A stretch of 41,061 nucleotides of DNA, taken from the NCBI RefSeq assembly GCF_022012415.1, contig NZ_JAKLTR010000030.1, positions 1 to 41,061 of the forward strand. Reading direction: 5' to 3'. This DNA is from Terrimonas ginsenosidimutans (lineage in GTDB: Bacteria > Bacteroidota > Bacteroidia > Chitinophagales > Chitinophagaceae). This document shows, one piece after another, positions 1 through 41,061 of this stretch (positions are counted from its first letter, which is position 1; each line of letters begins with the position of its first letter). The notes under the pieces are model-generated. The model was not told where the DNA came from and made no database searches. It saw only the letters and a program-made list of their open reading frames with translations. Both the position numbers and the translations under genes were made by a program.

Positions 1-22
1 CACCTCGCTTGAATTCCGGACA

Positions 23-60
23 ACGGTCAACGGACAACGGTCAACGGTCAACGGTCAACG
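23..60. repeat. Heptanucleotide tandem repeat (GGTCAAC type)
   Basis: Imperfect tandem copies of a 7-bp unit, GGTCAAC with one GGACAAC variant, lie upstream of the first gene. No coding or hairpin function is evident. A similar 7-bp unit (GGTCATC on the minus strand) occurs near 14631-14658, which suggests a genome-wide family of short intergenic repeats. Confidence 0.8.
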
Positions 61-122
61 ATCATCCCCCTTCTCCTTCTTTGGCACTTTAGTTGAAAGA
101 AGTATGCAGAAATGCGTGTACT

Positions 123-34709: not shown

Positions 34710-35645
34710 AAGAATCGCGACCGTCGGCCATTACCGACGCACACCGCAAAGCCAATCTACGGAATTTTGCTAAACAAAGAAACACAACTGCAATGTCACA
34801 TACCATCTACTTTTTGTTTTCGGCATTATTTAAGAACTATAAAGGCTCGCGAATGGGCCTCTTCAAACAAAAACAATTTTAATGGTACTGGAGTACTGTT
34901 ACATCGGAACACGCAACAAAAATGAATGCGCTGTCTATCATCTCTATTTGATGGAATATACGGGCATAATGCACAGGTGGCGGCAGGAGAGGACAATGCC
35001 ACCTGTAAAATAAAAAAAGACCCTTGATAAATCAAGAGTCTTTTTCTTTGAGTCGGGAAGACACGATTTGAAAACGCTTACTAAATTACTATAAATCGAA
35101 CATTTGATAGCCCATGGAATAGATACCCACCGATTTACTCACCTTTAAAGTAAAGAGCTTATTCAAAATTAAGAATCGTAATAGGATTATAAAAGAATAT
35201 CAGTACTTATGGATGCCATGAAAACCCCATCCAAAAAAGATTTCAATTATCTATCTTCAAACCTGACAGCATTCAGAATTCTCTACTCCAATTTCAAAAT
35301 ACAGTAGTTAGTAGGGATTGTTATTATATTTTGCTTTTACAAACAACCTACCCCAAAATTTTATGTCCTATATCTAAATAATTCCCTGTTCGACGCGCCG
35401 GTGACCATTTTTAAGTGATCAATAACCTATTAAAGGTTTTTTTGAAATCTATAACACTCCAAACAATCATAACTACCACAAGAACCAGTCTGAGTTCATA
35501 TAAACGATAATTTTACGAACGCATGAAGCGTCCAGGTAGTATGTAATCCAGCGGTAACGCGTATAATAAAGACTGCTGCGTATGTCTAAAAAATTACTAT
35601 ATTTAAGTCACCTGTAAGAAAAAACTTTCACTCCTGTCTGAGATT
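34710..35645. other. 936-bp intergenic region with a repeat relic
   Basis: It holds one copy of the terminator and tRNA 3'-end part of the array unit (35010-35075) and is otherwise AT-rich with no protein-like frame on either strand. The last 100 bp presumably include the promoter of the Crp/Fnr gene. Confidence 0.6.
35010..35075 (-). repeat. Solitary relic of the tRNA-like/terminator unit
   Basis: On the minus strand it reads the end of the tRNA-Pro-like element (TGTCTTCCCGACT), then CAAAG and the same terminator hairpin as in the array at 40619-41061. About 55 bp match the array almost perfectly. The T-arm has decayed and the rest of the tRNA-like part is gone. Confidence 0.85.
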
Positions 35646-36230
35646 ATGTTTGACATACTACGCCAACACATCGAAAATATCACTTCTTCTACTCTATCTG
35701 AAGAGGAGGCACTGATTATAAAAAATGCTTTCGTACAAAAAAGCTTACGTCGTAGGCAATTTCTGCTACACGAGGGAACCATATGCAAGTATATGGCGTT
35801 TGTCACTCGCGGAGCTTTACGCATATATTCCATCGACGACAAAGGAAACGAACACATTGTTCGGTTTGCATTGGAGGGTTGGTGGATCTGTGACCGGGAA
35901 AGCTTTTCACAACTGACGCCATCGCAATATAATATAGATGCGATCGAGGATTGCGACCTATTGGTTTCCACGAACGAACAGTTGAACCAGATGAAACAGT
36001 TATCGCCAACGTATATGAAGTTCACTTCAATCCTGGATGAACGGCATTATGCTGCTACCCACAGGCGGATACAGGCATACATCAGCTATACTGGCGAAGA
36101 ACGGCTCCGTGACCTGATGAATACCTATCCACAGTTTCTGCTTCGCCTGCCTCAGAATATGATAGCTTCTTATCTTGGCCTCACTCCGGAAACGCTCAGT
36201 CGAGTGCGAAAACAATTAATGGAGAAATAA
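35646..36230 (+). CDS. Crp/Fnr-family transcriptional regulator
   Basis: A 194-residue regulator with an N-terminal cyclic-nucleotide-type beta-barrel (about 20-115; FLLHEGTICKYMAFVTRGALRIYSIDDKGNEHIVRFALEGWW), a dimer helix, and a C-terminal helix-turn-helix (LPQNMIASYLGLTPETLSRVRKQLM). No Fe-S cysteine cluster is seen. Bacteroidota have many such proteins with altered ligand sites, so cAMP binding is not assumed. Just after the gene lies a Crp-type palindrome (36245-36260) and then the YcaC-like gene, its likely target. Confidence 0.9.
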   Translation: MFDILRQHIENITSSTLSEEEALIIKNAFVQKSLRRRQFLLHEGTICKYMAFVTRGALRIYSIDDKGNEHIVRFALEGWWICDRESFSQLTPSQYNIDAIEDCDLLVSTNEQLNQMKQLSPTYMKFTSILDERHYAATHRRIQAYISYTGEERLRDLMNTYPQFLLRLPQNMIASYLGLTPETLSRVRKQLMEK

Positions 36231-36244
36231 TCGATTATTGGAGG

Positions 36245-36260
36245 CTTGACAAATGTCAAG
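36245..36260. promoter_or_regulatory. Crp/Fnr-type palindrome
   Basis: CTTGACAAATGTCAAG has the TTGA-n6-TCAA geometry of Crp/Fnr sites. It lies 14 bp after the regulator gene and 89 bp before the YcaC-like gene start, well placed for activation of that gene by the adjacent regulator. Confidence 0.7.
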
Positions 36261-36349
36261 TAAAATTCTTACCAAACCTCATTTCCAGCCCGAAGTTGCT
36301 GGTGCATTTTTGTGTTGTCAATCTGACAAACAAACACAACAATAACATC

Positions 36350-37024
36350 ATGCAACTTAACAACAACTCCAAAGCCGGCCTCGGAGCCCTCCTGACCCCA
36401 AACAATTCTATATTGATCCTGATCGATCACCAACCCTTTCAGTTTGCGGGTCTTCGTAGTCATGATTCACAGAGCCTGATAAACAATGTGGTAACATTGG
36501 CAAAAACAGCCAAAGCTTTTGGCGTACCTACGCTGCTTACAACTGTCATAGCAGATCGCGGGGGGCATATCATCCCACAATTACAGGCCGTATTTCCCGA
36601 TCAGCAGCCTATCGATCGCACTACCCTTAACACTTGGGAAGATACAAGAGTGATCGAGTGGGTCAAAGCTCAGGGAAAGAAAAAGATCATCATGGCTGGT
36701 TTGTGGACCGAGATATGCCTCGCCTTCCCTGCTATACAAGCAGCTGGTGAAGGATATGAAGTCTACGCTGTAACAGATGCTTCAGGCGGCGTCACTCGCG
36801 AATCGCATGATATGGCTGTACTTCGTATGGTTCAGGCGGGTGTAACTCCCATTACATCACGAGTGGTGGGTGCTGAACTCCAGCGTGACTGGGCAAGACT
36901 TGAAACTGTTGAAGCCTTCGCTGAAATCGTCAGCAATCATTTCGGTAATGTTGGAACAACTTTTATTTGGGAACAACAATTACTGAACACGCCTGTGCCT
37001 GAAAATCCTGGTGGTGGAATATGA
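36350..37024 (+). CDS. YcaC-like isochorismatase-family hydrolase
   Basis: A 224-residue cysteine hydrolase. The start at ATG 36350 is chosen (MQLNNNSKAGLGALLTPNNS); upstream in-frame codons run into the promoter region. The catalytic Asp is D26 in LILIDHQPFQ, and the nucleophile is C123 in LWTEICLAFPAIQAAGEGYEV. DASGGVTRESHDMAVLRMVQAGV is the characteristic YcaC C-terminal block. YcaC proteins are widespread octameric or similar hydrolases whose natural substrate is unknown. It follows the Crp/Fnr gene and its palindrome, which suggests direct control. Confidence 0.9.
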   Translation: MQLNNNSKAGLGALLTPNNSILILIDHQPFQFAGLRSHDSQSLINNVVTLAKTAKAFGVPTLLTTVIADRGGHIIPQLQAVFPDQQPIDRTTLNTWEDTRVIEWVKAQGKKKIIMAGLWTEICLAFPAIQAAGEGYEVYAVTDASGGVTRESHDMAVLRMVQAGVTPITSRVVGAELQRDWARLETVEAFAEIVSNHFGNVGTTFIWEQQLLNTPVPENPGGGI

Positions 37025-37056
37025 TCAAAACCTATAAATGATATGGCTGAAAGTAA

Positions 37057-37100
37057 GGCCAAAAAAGAACGTTCCTTAGCGTAGATTTTTTGGCCTTTTT
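37057..37100 (+). terminator. Rho-independent terminator
   Basis: GGCCAAAAAA pairs with TTTTTTGGCC across a 19-base loop and is followed by a T run. It ends the YcaC-like gene and may also serve the convergent VOC gene. Confidence 0.75.
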
Positions 37101-37134
37101 TAGTTTCAATTTACAATGGTATTCTCTTGCTGGC

Positions 37135-37521
37135 TCAGTATCTGGTTAAACTCCAACCCCTCGCCGTCCGATCCTGGTATATGAAAGTATTTGCATCCGT
37201 GAGACCAAAATTCAGGAATAAAGGTTGTTCTTCCATAACAGGTATTCTTGCGACGCTAAATTGAGAAAAAGCTTCGTCTATGTTTTCGACGTCAAAAGCA
37301 ATGTGATCAATATGTCCATCTTCCCTTTCACGAATTTCAATTATTGGGCTCGCTGGCAATTGGTATAATTCGATCATGATCCCGCCGTTTTGCATCATTA
37401 GGCAATTCCCTTCCTCACCTACTGACATGAATGAGGCATTCATGACTCTTTCAAATCCGAGATTCCGATCTTTCCAGACAGCATCAGGATTATTCGCATC
37501 CGGCTTTTTCACAAAAAGCAT
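37135..37521 (-). CDS. VOC-family (glyoxalase/bleomycin resistance-like) protein
   Basis: A 128-residue protein with the two beta-alpha-beta-beta-beta halves of the vicinal-oxygen-chelate fold. The first half ends GIMIELYQLPASPII. The second starts DGHIDHIAFDVENIDEAFSQF, with a metal-ligand His (H55 or H58), and holds a FLNFGLTDANTFIYQDRTARGW strand pair. The substrate is not predictable. The N-terminus (MLFVKKPDANNPDAVW) begins within the fold, so the usual first strand is missing and the gene may be truncated at its 5' end. It lies in convergent orientation to the YcaC-like gene. Confidence 0.75.
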   Translation of the reverse strand: MLFVKKPDANNPDAVWKDRNLGFERVMNASFMSVGEEGNCLMMQNGGIMIELYQLPASPIIEIREREDGHIDHIAFDVENIDEAFSQFSVARIPVMEEQPLFLNFGLTDANTFIYQDRTARGWSLTRY

Positions 37522-37541
37522 CTACAAAATGGAAGTGTCCA

Positions 37542-37816
37542 ATGTCTACATTTCTTTTCCTAAGCCGCTCTAATCTGTGCTCAGCCGATAAGTCTGCGAA
37601 TATTTTGGAAATAATTCCCAAAGAAGCGTTGGCTGAGCTTGGAGATATTTCAAGCGAGTTGTTAAAAACCGCAGGGCTTGCGGAAATGAATGAAAAACTA
37701 AAATCTTTTTGAGGCTCGCCATCGCCAACAAATTCTTCATCCCCCTGGTAGCAGAAACAGGCATAAAGGATACATCTTCGCTGTTGGACAACGAAAAAAA
37801 GCCAGCGTCTGACTGA
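37542..37816 (+). pseudogene. Frameshifted small gene, unknown family
   Basis: The first frame (ATG 37542 to TGA 37712, 56 codons) ends LLKTAGLAEMNEKLKSF. A plus-one shift near 37700 continues as IFLRLAIANKFFIPLVAETG and further to a TGA at 37816, keeping a protein-like pattern. It therefore looks like one gene broken by a frameshift. Not recognised. Confidence 0.35.
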
Positions 37817-37851
37817 ATGAAATTAATTGTCTTTTTGTCTTAAAAACTATT

Positions 37852-38172
37852 TCAAACACCAAGATCGGAGTACCGTTTTTTCTCCACCTTCGCCTGAAGG
37901 TCTGGTTCTCCCTGGTTGTCTATGTCAGGGCCTAGGTCTATAAGCAGGCGTCTAATCACATATGCGATCTGCTTTATCAGAGTTCCTCGTGCATAGGTGC
38001 CACCACCCCAGGTTACAGAGCGATACCCGCCGAATTCATCAACCACATACCCCATCACATCAAAATACATAAAATAACGTTTCTTCAAACCTACAAATAC
38101 CTCACGCCCACTTTCGGACTCATTAACATGATATATCTCATAATTGGTTTGATCAGAGTCTATTTCATCCAA
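37852..38172 (-). CDS. Hypothetical protein, overlaps the ORF upstream
   Basis: A 106-residue soluble protein starting with TTG at 38172 (MDEIDSDQTNYEIYHVNESE). It is rich in aromatic and charged residues, with GLKKRYFMYFDVMGYVVDEF near the middle and VIRRLLIDLGPDIDNQGEPD near the end. No family is recognised. Its start lies within the end of the 55-codon ORF at 38160-38327, 13 bp in another frame. The two are either coupled genes or one gene split by a frameshift; the lack of an ATG start favours the latter slightly. Confidence 0.5.
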   Translation of the reverse strand: MDEIDSDQTNYEIYHVNESESGREVFVGLKKRYFMYFDVMGYVVDEFGGYRSVTWGGGTYARGTLIKQIAYVIRRLLIDLGPDIDNQGEPDLQAKVEKKRYSDLGV

Positions 38173-38327
38173 AAGTGATCAGAAAGTGTATTTGCTTCTA
38201 ATTCGATCAATAAGGTTTCCAACTCCACTACCGGCGCCATTCTTGTTCGGATGCCTTCAAGTTCATACATGAACGCTGTTTTCAAAGATACCCAAACGGT
38301 ACCACCTGTGCTGTAGGATTGAGCCAT
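38160..38327 (-). CDS. Small ORF upstream of and overlapping 37852-38172
   Basis: A 55-codon frame with ATG start (MAQSYSTGGTVWVSLKTAFM) ending LEANTLSDHFWMK. It reads like a real protein N-terminus and directly precedes the 106-residue frame. Joining the two by a frameshift near 38165 would give a protein of about 160 residues. No family is recognised. Confidence 0.45.
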   Translation of the reverse strand: MAQSYSTGGTVWVSLKTAFMYELEGIRTRMAPVVELETLLIELEANTLSDHFWMK

Positions 38328-38345
38328 GTCAAACAAAGTAATGGA

Positions 38346-39758
38346 TCACTCCTTATGCTCAGGCTCTTCGTCTACCTGCAATTCTGCGATTGTTTTTTGT
38401 GCAGCTGCCAATCGCAACAACCGGTTCTTTGCGGTCATCTTGTGGGTGATATAATGCTCGATCCTATGGTGAAGCGGGATCAGCAGGGACGCGATGGCCA
38501 CCATGATCAACAACATCAGCAATGGGGAATGATGAGTAAGGTTACCAAGAAAAGGATGGAGATATAAATTAATGAACTCGAAGAAGAGTAATAAACCCAG
38601 GATGCCAAGGAACCTGATCCATTTTTCGGTAACAATAACAGAACGGCTCAGCAATAAAAAGATCAACAAAAAACTGACAACGCCAATGCCGATAATTGCA
38701 TATTGTATATTGGCCTTTCTTTCCTGGTCTGAAGCGAGTCGCTCTGATTCCAGTTGCTGTTGACGAACGGCTTCTTCAAAGTTCAGCAACTGCACCCGCC
38801 GCGCTTTTTCTTCGTTGAAAAGAGTGTCTTTTACAGCGATCATTTGTTGCATATAAACAAAAGCGCTATCAATAATGCGTTGCTCTTTGTAATAGTTCGC
38901 AAGAAAACTGCTTGCGTCCAGTACCTCAGGCATAAAACCTCCATTCTTTGCCACATTCAGCGAAAGTTTGGCGTAGTATTCAGTAGAATCATGTTGTCCT
39001 TTCAGTTTAAAATAATCAGCCATGCCAATTGCCACCGCACTGATACCGCCAACATGATCTATCTGTTTACAAAGAGGCATGCTGGCCCGGAAATAGCTGA
39101 TTGCAATATCGGGCTGTTTCATTTTCATATAAATGTTCCCAAGGTTACACAGGGACAAGGCAGCGACATCGAGTCTCTTGATTTTAACCGAAAGGTCATT
39201 TGCAAGGGTTGTATAAATGCGGGCAGAATCCAGGATGTTTAGTTTTTCATAACTATCACCAAGATTCAGTTGGCTGATGCAGCGGCCATTGAGGTTGTTG
39301 GTCTTTTCCCAGATTACCAGGGATTTCTTGGTATACTCTACCGACTTCATTTCGTCGCCCAGTGCCGCATAAACATTGCCAAGATTGCTCGTCGCCCTCC
39401 CTTGCAACAGGTCGTCTGGAATCTCTTCCGCCATTTTCAACGCTTGCAGGTAATAGTCAAGGGATTTTGCATTATCGCCAATCGTCCAGAAAATATTGCC
39501 GATCGTATTGAGAGCCTTTGCTTCCTGTAAGCGGTTGCCGGCTTTCCTGCCCATATCCAGCGCCTGCTGTGCCAGCTTCAACGCAGTATCAGGCCGGCTT
39601 AAAGCATAGATCAATCCGAGTTCGTTGATCAGCTCGAAGCGGGCGGAATCTTTTCTTTCTTTAGAAAGTAATTGATTGAGACTGTCGATCTCCGATTGCT
39701 GCGAAGATGCGTTCAACACAGGGAAAAGGCTCAAAACAGCCAGGATAAGTTTTCTCAT
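38346..39758 (-). CDS. TPR-repeat membrane protein without output domain
   Basis: A 470-residue exported protein. The start is placed at ATG 39758 (MRKLILAVLSLFPVLNASSQ), which gives a clean signal peptide; the frame is open 34 residues further up. About 8 tetratricopeptide repeats (about 55-330; LNTIGNIFWTIGDNAKSLDYY, NLGNVYAALGDEMKSVEY, NLGNIYMKMKQPDIAISYF) form the periplasmic part. Three membrane segments follow (about 345-365, 378-396, 405-425), then a cytoplasmic His/Ala/Gln-rich tail. Bacteroidota have similar TPR sensors fused to a histidine kinase or HTH; here no such domain is present, so it may signal through a partner or be a shortened relative. Confidence 0.85.
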   Translation of the reverse strand: MRKLILAVLSLFPVLNASSQQSEIDSLNQLLSKERKDSARFELINELGLIYALSRPDTALKLAQQALDMGRKAGNRLQEAKALNTIGNIFWTIGDNAKSLDYYLQALKMAEEIPDDLLQGRATSNLGNVYAALGDEMKSVEYTKKSLVIWEKTNNLNGRCISQLNLGDSYEKLNILDSARIYTTLANDLSVKIKRLDVAALSLCNLGNIYMKMKQPDIAISYFRASMPLCKQIDHVGGISAVAIGMADYFKLKGQHDSTEYYAKLSLNVAKNGGFMPEVLDASSFLANYYKEQRIIDSAFVYMQQMIAVKDTLFNEEKARRVQLLNFEEAVRQQQLESERLASDQERKANIQYAIIGIGVVSFLLIFLLLSRSVIVTEKWIRFLGILGLLLFFEFINLYLHPFLGNLTHHSPLLMLLIMVAIASLLIPLHHRIEHYITHKMTAKNRLLRLAAAQKTIAELQVDEEPEHKE

Positions 39759-40037
39759 GGTCAGTTGGTTTGTGCAGTAGATGGCGTATTGGCTAAGATA
39801 TTCAAAATTATGAAAATGCGGGCAGCACGACTTCGCCGGATAGTAAGAAAGGTAGCTCATCAGTCGGCTACTGATATCCGGTCACCGGTATCAACTGGAG
39901 ATCATAGATTGAAAAGCGTATTCGGCTAAGAGTACTTAAGGCCAGCCACATAAGGGCGCAACCAAAGATCATCTTGCTTATCTGGCATCCTGCGAGGACC
40001 TCAGGTAAAATAATGTGTTGGTCTGTTATTGACTCTA
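39759..40037. other. Intergenic stretch before the TPR gene
   Basis: About 280 bp upstream of the TPR gene on its 5' side. It should hold its promoter, but I see no clear -33/-7 element, hairpin or reading frame that looks like protein. Confidence 0.4.
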
Positions 40038-40618
40038 TCAAATTCGTGTCCTGCGCACAATGACCGGAAAAAGATGATACATGTCTATAAATAGCTCATA
40101 CCGCAATTTCTCTTGGTCCTTCACGATAAACTTGTTTGCGTAAGTAATCAAAAATCTTTCTTTATCGGTGACAGAACTACCGTCAAATCATTCGATCCCA
40201 ACACCCTTATACATTCCATCCATATCAACAACATTGTGCAACTATTTTAGATGTTCCTTGAATTTTTTCTGATCTATTGTCAGACTTTCCGTAAACTGTA
40301 TCATTTCTTTCACGAATTCATACATATTACCTGGCTCAGTAAGTAACCTTTTCATTTCTTTTGGCATATCTGCCGGTAAATCAATCTCGGCTACAAGCTC
40401 TCTCAATGGCAACGGGATCGCCTTGAATTGCGTACGCATTATTTGTTCCATCATTTCCAATACAGCCGCATAGTCGTTGACGAGTTCATGAATATCAAAT
40501 TTTTTACGTTTGGTCTTCTTCAGAAGACAGCTATATTTTTTGCATTGATTTTCTTTGATCCATTTTCTTGCAAATCATTAAGACTTACAAGGACTGATTG
40601 TTTTTGACATTCCAGTTG
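40038..40618 (-). pseudogene. Stop-interrupted reading frame abutting the array
   Basis: One continuous minus-strand frame of about 190 codons keeps a protein-like pattern across two in-frame stops, TAG at 40242-40244 and TGA at 40188-40190. The first part reads LQEKWIKENQCKKYSCLLKK, then KKFDIHELVNDYAAVLEMME, then IPLPLRELVAEIDLPADMPK. The middle reads DMDGMYKGVGIE, and the last part SSVTDKERFLITYANKFIVK and DQEKLRYELFIDMYHLFPVI. There is no ATG before 40453; a TTG near 40572 is the only upstream start. The sequence joins directly to the end of the first tRNA-like copy, so the 5' end may have been lost when the array formed. No family is recognised. Confidence 0.6.
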
Positions 40619-40695
40619 TCGGGAAGACAGGATTCGAACCTGCGACCCTCCCGGCTTAAAGCCGGGAGGCGCTATCAATGGCCATACGCTTATAC
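40619..40695 (-). other. tRNA-Pro-like element, copy 1
   Basis: This is the leftmost copy, and it runs into the interrupted reading frame with no terminator after it. The anticodon loop is CTTTAAG; the base after the D-stem is C where the others have A (GCGCCT versus GCGCAT). Confidence 0.75.
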
Positions 40696-40739
40696 AATAA
40701 AAAAAGACCCTTGATAAATCAAGAGTCTTTTTCTTTCAG

Positions 40740-40816
40740 TCGGGAAGACAGGATTCGAACCTGCGACCCTCCCGGCCTAAAGCCGGGATGCGCTATCAAT
40801 AGCCATACGCTTATAC
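40740..40816 (-). other. tRNA-Pro-like element, copy 2
   Basis: The anticodon loop is CTTTAGG. The D-loop has one change (CTATTG instead of CCATTG). It is followed on its 3' side by the terminator at 40701-40732. Confidence 0.75.
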
Positions 40817-40859
40817 AATAAAAAAAGACCCTTGATAAATCAAGAGTCTTTTTTTTCAG

Positions 40860-40936
40860 TCGGGAAGACAGGATTCGAACCTGCGACCCTCCCGGCTTAA
40901 AGCCAGGATGCGCTATCAATGGCCATGCGCTTATAC
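40860..40936 (-). other. tRNA-Pro-like element, copy 3
   Basis: The anticodon loop is CTTTAAG with one wobble pair in its stem (CCTGG with CCGGG). The D-stem GCGC/GCGC is perfect. Confidence 0.75.
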
Positions 40937-40980
40937 AATAAAAAAAGACCCTTGATAAATCAAGAGTCTTTTTCTTTCAG

Positions 40981-41057
40981 TCGGGAAGACAGGATTCGAA
41001 CCTGCGACCCTCCCGGCTTAAAGCCGGGATGCGCTATCAATGGCCATGCGCTTATAC
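40981..41057 (-). other. tRNA-Pro-like element, copy 4
   Basis: The consensus copy, with perfect D-stem and anticodon stem and loop CTTTAAG. Its 5' end reaches the window edge. Confidence 0.75.
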
Positions 41058-41061
41058 AATA

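Follow-up and report, generated by a model that had tools for sequence, protein, structure and literature searches.

The rtT repeats of Escherichia coli tyrT resemble the repeats described here in that they stand in tandem after a tRNA gene and begin with the tRNA 3' end. REP/RAYT systems and the Rickettsia palindromic elements are short palindromes that are tied to a small nuclease or inserted in RNA genes, and integrative elements that target tRNA genes by means of tyrosine recombinases duplicate the tRNA 3' end. SegB, a free-standing GIY-YIG homing endonuclease of the T-even phage T6, is reported to cut in tRNA-containing DNA and to drive tandem amplification by recombination, leaving repeats that hold the tRNA and a truncated segB (PMC13096335). 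SegB was the nearest system in our literature search, which covered the top titles and abstracts of long result lists; among these, none described GIY-YIG elements of bacterial chromosomes that are tied to tRNAs. A term search of PMC1564403 gave three mentions of tRNA, none of which concerns the neighbourhood of tRNA genes.

Here we analyse a stretch of 41,061 nucleotides from Terrimonas ginsenosidimutans (the window), which ends in an array of altered tRNA-Pro copies, together with the rest of this genome and related loci in other genomes. We propose that the array probably consists of tandem-amplified, non-autonomous copies, devoid of an open reading frame (ORF), of a GIY-YIG element that targets tRNA genes and sits at tRNA-Pro(UGG).

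An array of altered tRNA-Pro copies

The window ends in a tandem repeat (40618-41061; period 121, 3.7 copies and 96% matches in TRF) made up of four pseudo-tRNA-Pro units on the minus strand with a period of 120-121 bp (Table 1), which confirms the tandem tRNA-Pro-derived array described in an earlier reading made from the sequence only. Each unit runs from a leader of about 24 nt through TAGCGC, an anticodon arm altered to TCCCGG-CTTTAAG-CCGGGA (some units differ from this by one or two changes) and 31 nt equal to the tRNA-Pro 3' end to a terminator, except in the distal unit. The claim that every unit has its own terminator thus holds for three of the four window units, which carry the tRNA-Pro terminator; in the most distal one (40618-40699) other DNA follows directly after CCCGAC. 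The terminator hairpin has a predicted energy of -18.3 kcal/mol, equalled by 0/200 shuffles, and was missed by a simple terminator scanner run on the window. At the other end of the window (17-64) lies a 7-bp tandem repeat, CGGTCAA, in 6.9 copies.

Table 1. Features of the array and of the segment inserted in it; H is the altered anticodon arm
Feature	Position	Strand	Remarks
Detached tRNA 3' end (TGTCTTCCCGAC) with terminator	35012..35069	-	Far end of the ~5.57-kb segment in unit a
Pseudo-tRNA-Pro unit a	40618..40699	-	Distal unit; no terminator of its own
3' part of unit a, 31 nt (variable loop, T-arm, 3' acceptor strand)	40618..40648	-	100% match to intact tRNA-Pro, C30:129-159
H of unit a, TCCCGG-CTTTAAG-CCGGGA	40649..40667	-	Read from sequence
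Terminator of unit b	40700..40738	-	Sequence and fold
Pseudo-tRNA-Pro unit b (H 40770-40788)	40739..40820	-	Has GCTATTGATAGCGCATCCCG in common with ORF-less unit after tRNA-Pro(GGG), L087
Terminator of unit c	40821..40858	-	Sequence
Pseudo-tRNA-Pro unit c (H 40890-40908)	40859..40940	-
Terminator of unit d	40941..40979	-	Sequence
Pseudo-tRNA-Pro unit d (H 41011-41029)	40980..41061	-	Contig end; array probably goes on in C30

The window units are not functional tRNA genes. As the sequence-only reading had noted, no pairing is possible between ATTGTAT, their 5' strand, and CTTCCCG, and no acceptor stem can form; a tRNA search and a covariance search with Rfam, of the kinds which that reading had proposed, gave 0 tRNAs in the window (ARAGORN) and 0 matches at gathering score, the best tRNA-clan scores being 25.6 bits against a threshold of 47 for tRNA-Sec and 20.1 against 29 for tRNA. 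An Rfam family for the unit was therefore dropped as a candidate, only tRNA-clan and chance families appearing below gathering. The 7-nt CTTTAAG loop, with U33 followed by UUA, would give the units the anticodon UUA of an ochre suppressor or other anticodon-variant tRNA, and ARAGORN does call 'tRNA-Stop(tta)' on altered copies in L097 and L150; with an acceptor stem that cannot form in the window units and loops that differ in length and letters among relatives, we give this reading almost no credence.

All copies allow a D-stem, an anticodon stem and a T-stem to be drawn, and the few differences are wobble pairs or fall in loops. The earlier observation that the stems are kept in every copy is correct to this extent; because the units are 97-98% identical in pairwise comparison, such stem-preserving changes are no proof of selection, and the units fold only moderately better than shuffled sequences (z -1.8 to -2.5). 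The near identity fits the very recent expansion that had been offered as the other possibility.

The intact tRNA-Pro and the rest of the genome

An intact tRNA-Pro(UGG), predicted by the sequence-only reading for the far end of the array, is found on contig C30 (129-203, minus strand), where one further unit follows it. The array common to both contigs suggests that C30 and C24 join; joined in this way, the array adjoins an intact tRNA of the same kind on the same strand and comprises at least five units in total, the C30 unit included. C30 also carries tRNA-Ser(GCT) and a gene that we take, from its sequence, to be dnaA. Several array matches, for example in G035 and G036, lie at contig ends, as does the window array.

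Neither the window nor C30 holds a GIY-YIG ORF, and the only GIY-YIG genes of this genome are two from the group that has no link to tRNAs and two that encode long proteins. A search of the window for a nuclease remnant with 142 nuclease queries gave three matches with E values of 0.02-0.05, no better than chance would give with that number of queries, and the best match of the nuclease profile to the window has an E value of 2.4; one candidate remnant near 35.3 kb (E 0.044 with one of the 142 queries) was dropped, the profile giving no support. The array itself, compared by blastn with phages and plasmids, gave only short tRNA-like matches, none spanning 80% of the query, and a pattern for the 5' half matched one unrelated Erythrobacter contig among genome contigs and 0 viral contigs.

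The segment inserted in unit a

Unit a is parted from its terminator by a segment of about 5.57 kb (35052-40617) that is inserted at the tRNA 3' end of the unit, between 12-bp direct repeats of TGTCTTCCCGAC. The proteins encoded in it include a Crp-like regulator, one with an isochorismatase domain, a TPR protein and one that matches glyoxalase weakly. The segment apparently used this pseudo-tRNA unit as its attachment or integration site. At what looks like the orthologous tRNA-Pro(UGG) of a genome of the same genus (G001), an ORF for a phage integrase (PF00589, 7.1e-16; L049 6821-8113) begins 325 bp after the tRNA. The repeat-flanked segment and this integrase are what might be expected if repeated integration by tyrosine recombinases at the tRNA-Pro 3' end had left the array behind as tandem remnants. 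Such integration would cover the 5.57-kb insertion, but not the altered anticodon arm, the terminator copied with each unit or the nuclease layout seen elsewhere, and no integrase was found among the five scanned ORFs of the segment; as an origin of the whole array we consider it improbable.

Altered anticodon arms in relatives

Altered tRNA copies with a similar anticodon stem were found beside Pro, Val, Asn and Arg tRNAs when relatives were searched for tRNA-Pro-like copies. The altered stem, TCCCG...CGGGA (hereafter H), was written as a pattern, GCATCCCG-N3-16-CGGGAGGG, which occurs in 58/244 same-family genomes, against 2/244 for the reversed control pattern; a few of the matches look like coding sequence and are chance. 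Across other genera H lies in altered copies of Lys, Met, Val, Arg, Asn, Pro and Ala tRNAs, and in the genome of the window it is confined to this array and one match on contig C3. The 89 H-bearing pieces that were fetched represent 80 distinct loci, 69 of them with an ARAGORN tRNA in the fetched piece (some of these calls being the altered copies themselves); five loci (L067, L069, L075, L143, L144) are without a tRNA and look like chance matches, and L049, L057, L059-L062, L095 and L096 were left out of the survey. An ORF of about 80 aa for a GIY-YIG nuclease is present at 41/80 distinct loci, the other 39/80 having no ORF in the fetched piece, and its strand is that of H for 45/45 ORFs.

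Another origin of the array would be a plain duplication of tRNA-Pro and its terminator, in which the 5' half decayed and slippage multiplied the now inert unit, with no element involved. The 3' part and terminator that equal those of the intact gene, the near identity of the units and a window free of nuclease genes all suit this origin; divergence from tRNA-Pro that is restricted to the 5' half and the anticodon arm, rather than spread over the unit, does not, and neither does the recurrence of H in altered copies of seven kinds of tRNA in other genera, with nuclease ORFs at about half of the loci. We therefore think a plain duplication unlikely, though less so than remnants of integration.

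The two positions just inside TCCCG/CGGGA, on which the pattern sets no condition, are able to pair in 112/114 distinct H units (A-T in 87, C-G in 22), nine loci (L059-L062, L067, L069, L075, L143, L144) being omitted from this count. H loops vary in length and letters among relatives but often retain part of the sequence of the local anticodon loop, so that H has the look of an anticodon stem whose letters have been replaced. We also considered, and set aside, the possibility that H is a palindrome dispersed at large: in the fetched loci, which had been selected for H, nearly all its occurrences are in tRNA-like copies and a few resemble terminators. The sequence-only reading had taken the paired stems as a possible sign of a family of tRNA-like RNAs. 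The family of similar loci is borne out by the spread of H; a functional family of small RNAs, in which every unit would be transcribed and terminated, is not supported and strikes us as very improbable, even with stems that can pair in all units, H pairs kept in relatives, a strong terminator and the fold scores given above in its favour. Each unit lies behind the terminator of the preceding one, Rfam scores are below threshold, the 5' side and the loop vary freely among genomes, the same altered copies elsewhere flank a nuclease ORF, and 0 promoter-like sites were found in the window against 0.8 expected by a sigma-70 scan, a weak test that fits Bacteroidota promoters poorly.

Presence of H is patchy among close relatives: of three genomes in genus g106, one has it at tRNA-Pro (G107), one at tRNA-Arg (G235) and one not at all (G183). 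Further tandem H arrays occur at L077, L097, L102, L103, L113 and L114. In L074, L081, L085 and L090, additional hairpins of the CCCGA/TCGGG type lie outside the anticodon position of altered tRNA copies. Some elements with a nuclease lack H and have other palindromes or none; non-H palindromes occur in tRNA copies beside the nuclease in L190, L197, L198, L201, L203, L213 and L220, in D- and T-loops too, and may belong to a wider class that enters tRNA loops.

A small GIY-YIG nuclease beside tRNA genes

PF01541 scored above its cut-off in 9/9 nuclease ORFs scanned. A profile of 20 rows built from tRNA-linked ORFs (A1) matches 43/60 same-family genomes, and from the 60-genome list, all but a few places of which were fetched, we obtained 108 ORFs in 90 loci. 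A called tRNA lies within 600 bp of 81/108 of these ORFs, always on the strand of the ORF (81/81; two of the calls are 'Stop' calls on altered copies, besides which there are 22 tRNA labels), and H lies within 600 bp of 42/108. Searched phylum-wide, A1 matches 97/198 genomes at 1e-12, and in the best 29 loci fetched 32/37 ORFs stand beside a tRNA, again on the same strand (32/32). Because A1 came from tRNA-linked ORFs, the count was repeated with the plain Pfam model in eight genomes, covering 30/38 listed places: 13/19 small GIY-YIG ORFs have a tRNA no more than 600 bp away, against 0/11 long GIY-YIG proteins, and of the six remaining small ORFs two are 820 and 1204 bp away and four have no tRNA in the piece. 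Up to four ORFs follow one tRNA in a row at L197, L190, L198 and L220, where nuclease-bearing units are in tandem.

Relatedness among the nucleases follows tRNA identity, strongly but not absolutely. A tree of the 40 ORFs beside H shows 10 changes of tRNA label, against 25.0 with shuffled labels, and a tree of 142 ORFs shows 45, against 86.3 (0/200 shuffles as low in either case); ORFs below 70 aa or 40 bits, near-duplicates and tRNA calls containing H were dropped from the larger tree. Labels do switch, and many forks are not resolved. A clade apart is formed by 14 unlabelled ORFs with no tie to a tRNA, among them L094 from the genome of the window. The nearest solved structures by sequence are 1zg2 (1.4e-12), 1ywl (4.3e-10) and SLX1 (7cq2, 7.6e-7), with I-TevI (1mk0) at only 0.27. 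One query nuclease had no match in phage and plasmid collections, and two had no relative in viral contigs.

Layout of complete elements

The usual order is a 5' tRNA fragment, an intact tRNA with the nuclease, and a 3' tRNA fragment. Counted with one row per locus, 89 of 103 loci with a tRNA followed by a nuclease have a partial copy of the tRNA downstream of the ORF, 67 of them reaching the tRNA 3' end, and 50 have a partial copy upstream, 44 of them beginning at nt 1-2. Control tRNAs have an upstream copy in 8/47 cases and a downstream copy in 2/47, and the control loci with copies include three that are element loci themselves (L025, L033, L035) and two that adjoin a real tRNA-Pro (L045, L058). 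By these counts, the intact tRNA and the nuclease are usually enclosed by the two parts of a split copy of that tRNA gene. The break points are scattered, with downstream copies starting at nt 1-71 and upstream copies ending at nt 13-77, and therefore no single cut site is seen; the two fragments overlap at about nt 18-60, a stretch centred on the anticodon arm. The order is reversed at Pro(GGG) loci, where the nuclease precedes the tRNA. In many cases the 3' fragment ends in its own terminator and the nuclease ORF starts within the T-run of a terminator, and the intact tRNA has an unchanged anticodon stem in the examples read.

The window array matches this type of element by its 3' tRNA fragment with a copied terminator and by its H-type anticodon arm, which is common but not universal among elements. 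Having no GIY-YIG ORF, it is assigned as an ORF-less copy and not as a member of the complete elements. ORF-less and ORF-bearing units stand side by side in L041. The nearest unit found to those of the window is an ORF-less one after tRNA-Pro(GGG) in the nuclease-bearing L087, which is identical to unit b over 20 nt and lacks the 5' D-stem strand. Two nuclease ORFs, each followed by H, lie at a tRNA-Ser(GCT)-tRNA-Pro(UGG) pair in L109, which looks like the same site as that of the window genome.

Proposed origin of the array

By analogy with SegB, we infer the following course of events. A nuclease matched to one tRNA gene would break target copies of that gene, and repair from the element would copy the element into the broken site, the intact tRNA carried along keeping the cell alive. 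The altered anticodon arm H might block or mark recutting, and repair together with recombination between direct repeats would multiply short ORF-less units such as those in the window, whose array would once have held an ORF. As the window has no nuclease remnant, the reading of its units as ORF-less copies rests on H and on layout. Several observations weigh against this course: the intact tRNA, in the examples read, keeps its anticodon stem, which leaves its escape from cutting unexplained; no trace of a nuclease accompanies an H that, in its own genome, hardly occurs outside the array; the scattered break points show no single cut site; and the fetched pieces of many H loci contain no ORF, the controls are not clean and some elements are without H. 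A variant worth testing is an enzyme that would be selective for structure and act on cruciform-prone tRNA genes, since the nearest structures are UPF0213 and SLX1 and not I-TevI.

More tentatively, and with somewhat more doubt than belief, we suggest that such elements may form a phylum-wide selfish class, in which each lineage of tiny GIY-YIG nucleases belongs to a single tRNA gene, which it splits and for which it brings an intact replacement. This would amount to a natural system of break and rescue, with broken copies marked by a palindromic anticodon stem, and the window would show its nuclease-free, amplified end state. If this is true, essential tRNA genes across the phylum host resident, addictive selfish elements, which would account for odd arrays of tRNA pseudogenes, for many tiny GIY-YIG ORFs and for some assembly breaks at tRNAs. 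About twenty nuclease-tRNA pairings are on offer, and their DNA specificity is directly testable.

Comparison with known systems

The rtT repeats of E. coli, to our knowledge, have neither H nor the nuclease layout. REP/RAYT systems and the Rickettsia palindromic elements differ in that no RAYT is present here and H occupies one defined place of tRNA copies. The integrative elements that target tRNA genes likewise duplicate the tRNA 3' end, and one such event seemingly used unit a, but they employ another enzyme, do not bring an intact tRNA with a GIY-YIG gene and have no H. UPF0213 and SLX1-type GIY-YIG proteins are the closest in sequence among solved structures, and the separate clade of 14 ORFs is not tied to tRNAs. 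The likeness to SegB, as reported, lies in a small GIY-YIG nuclease gene beside tRNA genes and in tandem repeats (PMC13096335). SegB belongs to phage genomes, the survey in that source dealing with phage and archaeal-virus proteins (PMC13096335), whereas the elements described here, known from their sequences, are chromosomal, lie in a split copy of the same tRNA gene and have one nuclease lineage per tRNA; if our reading is true, they would be a chromosomal counterpart of the tandem amplification driven by SegB.
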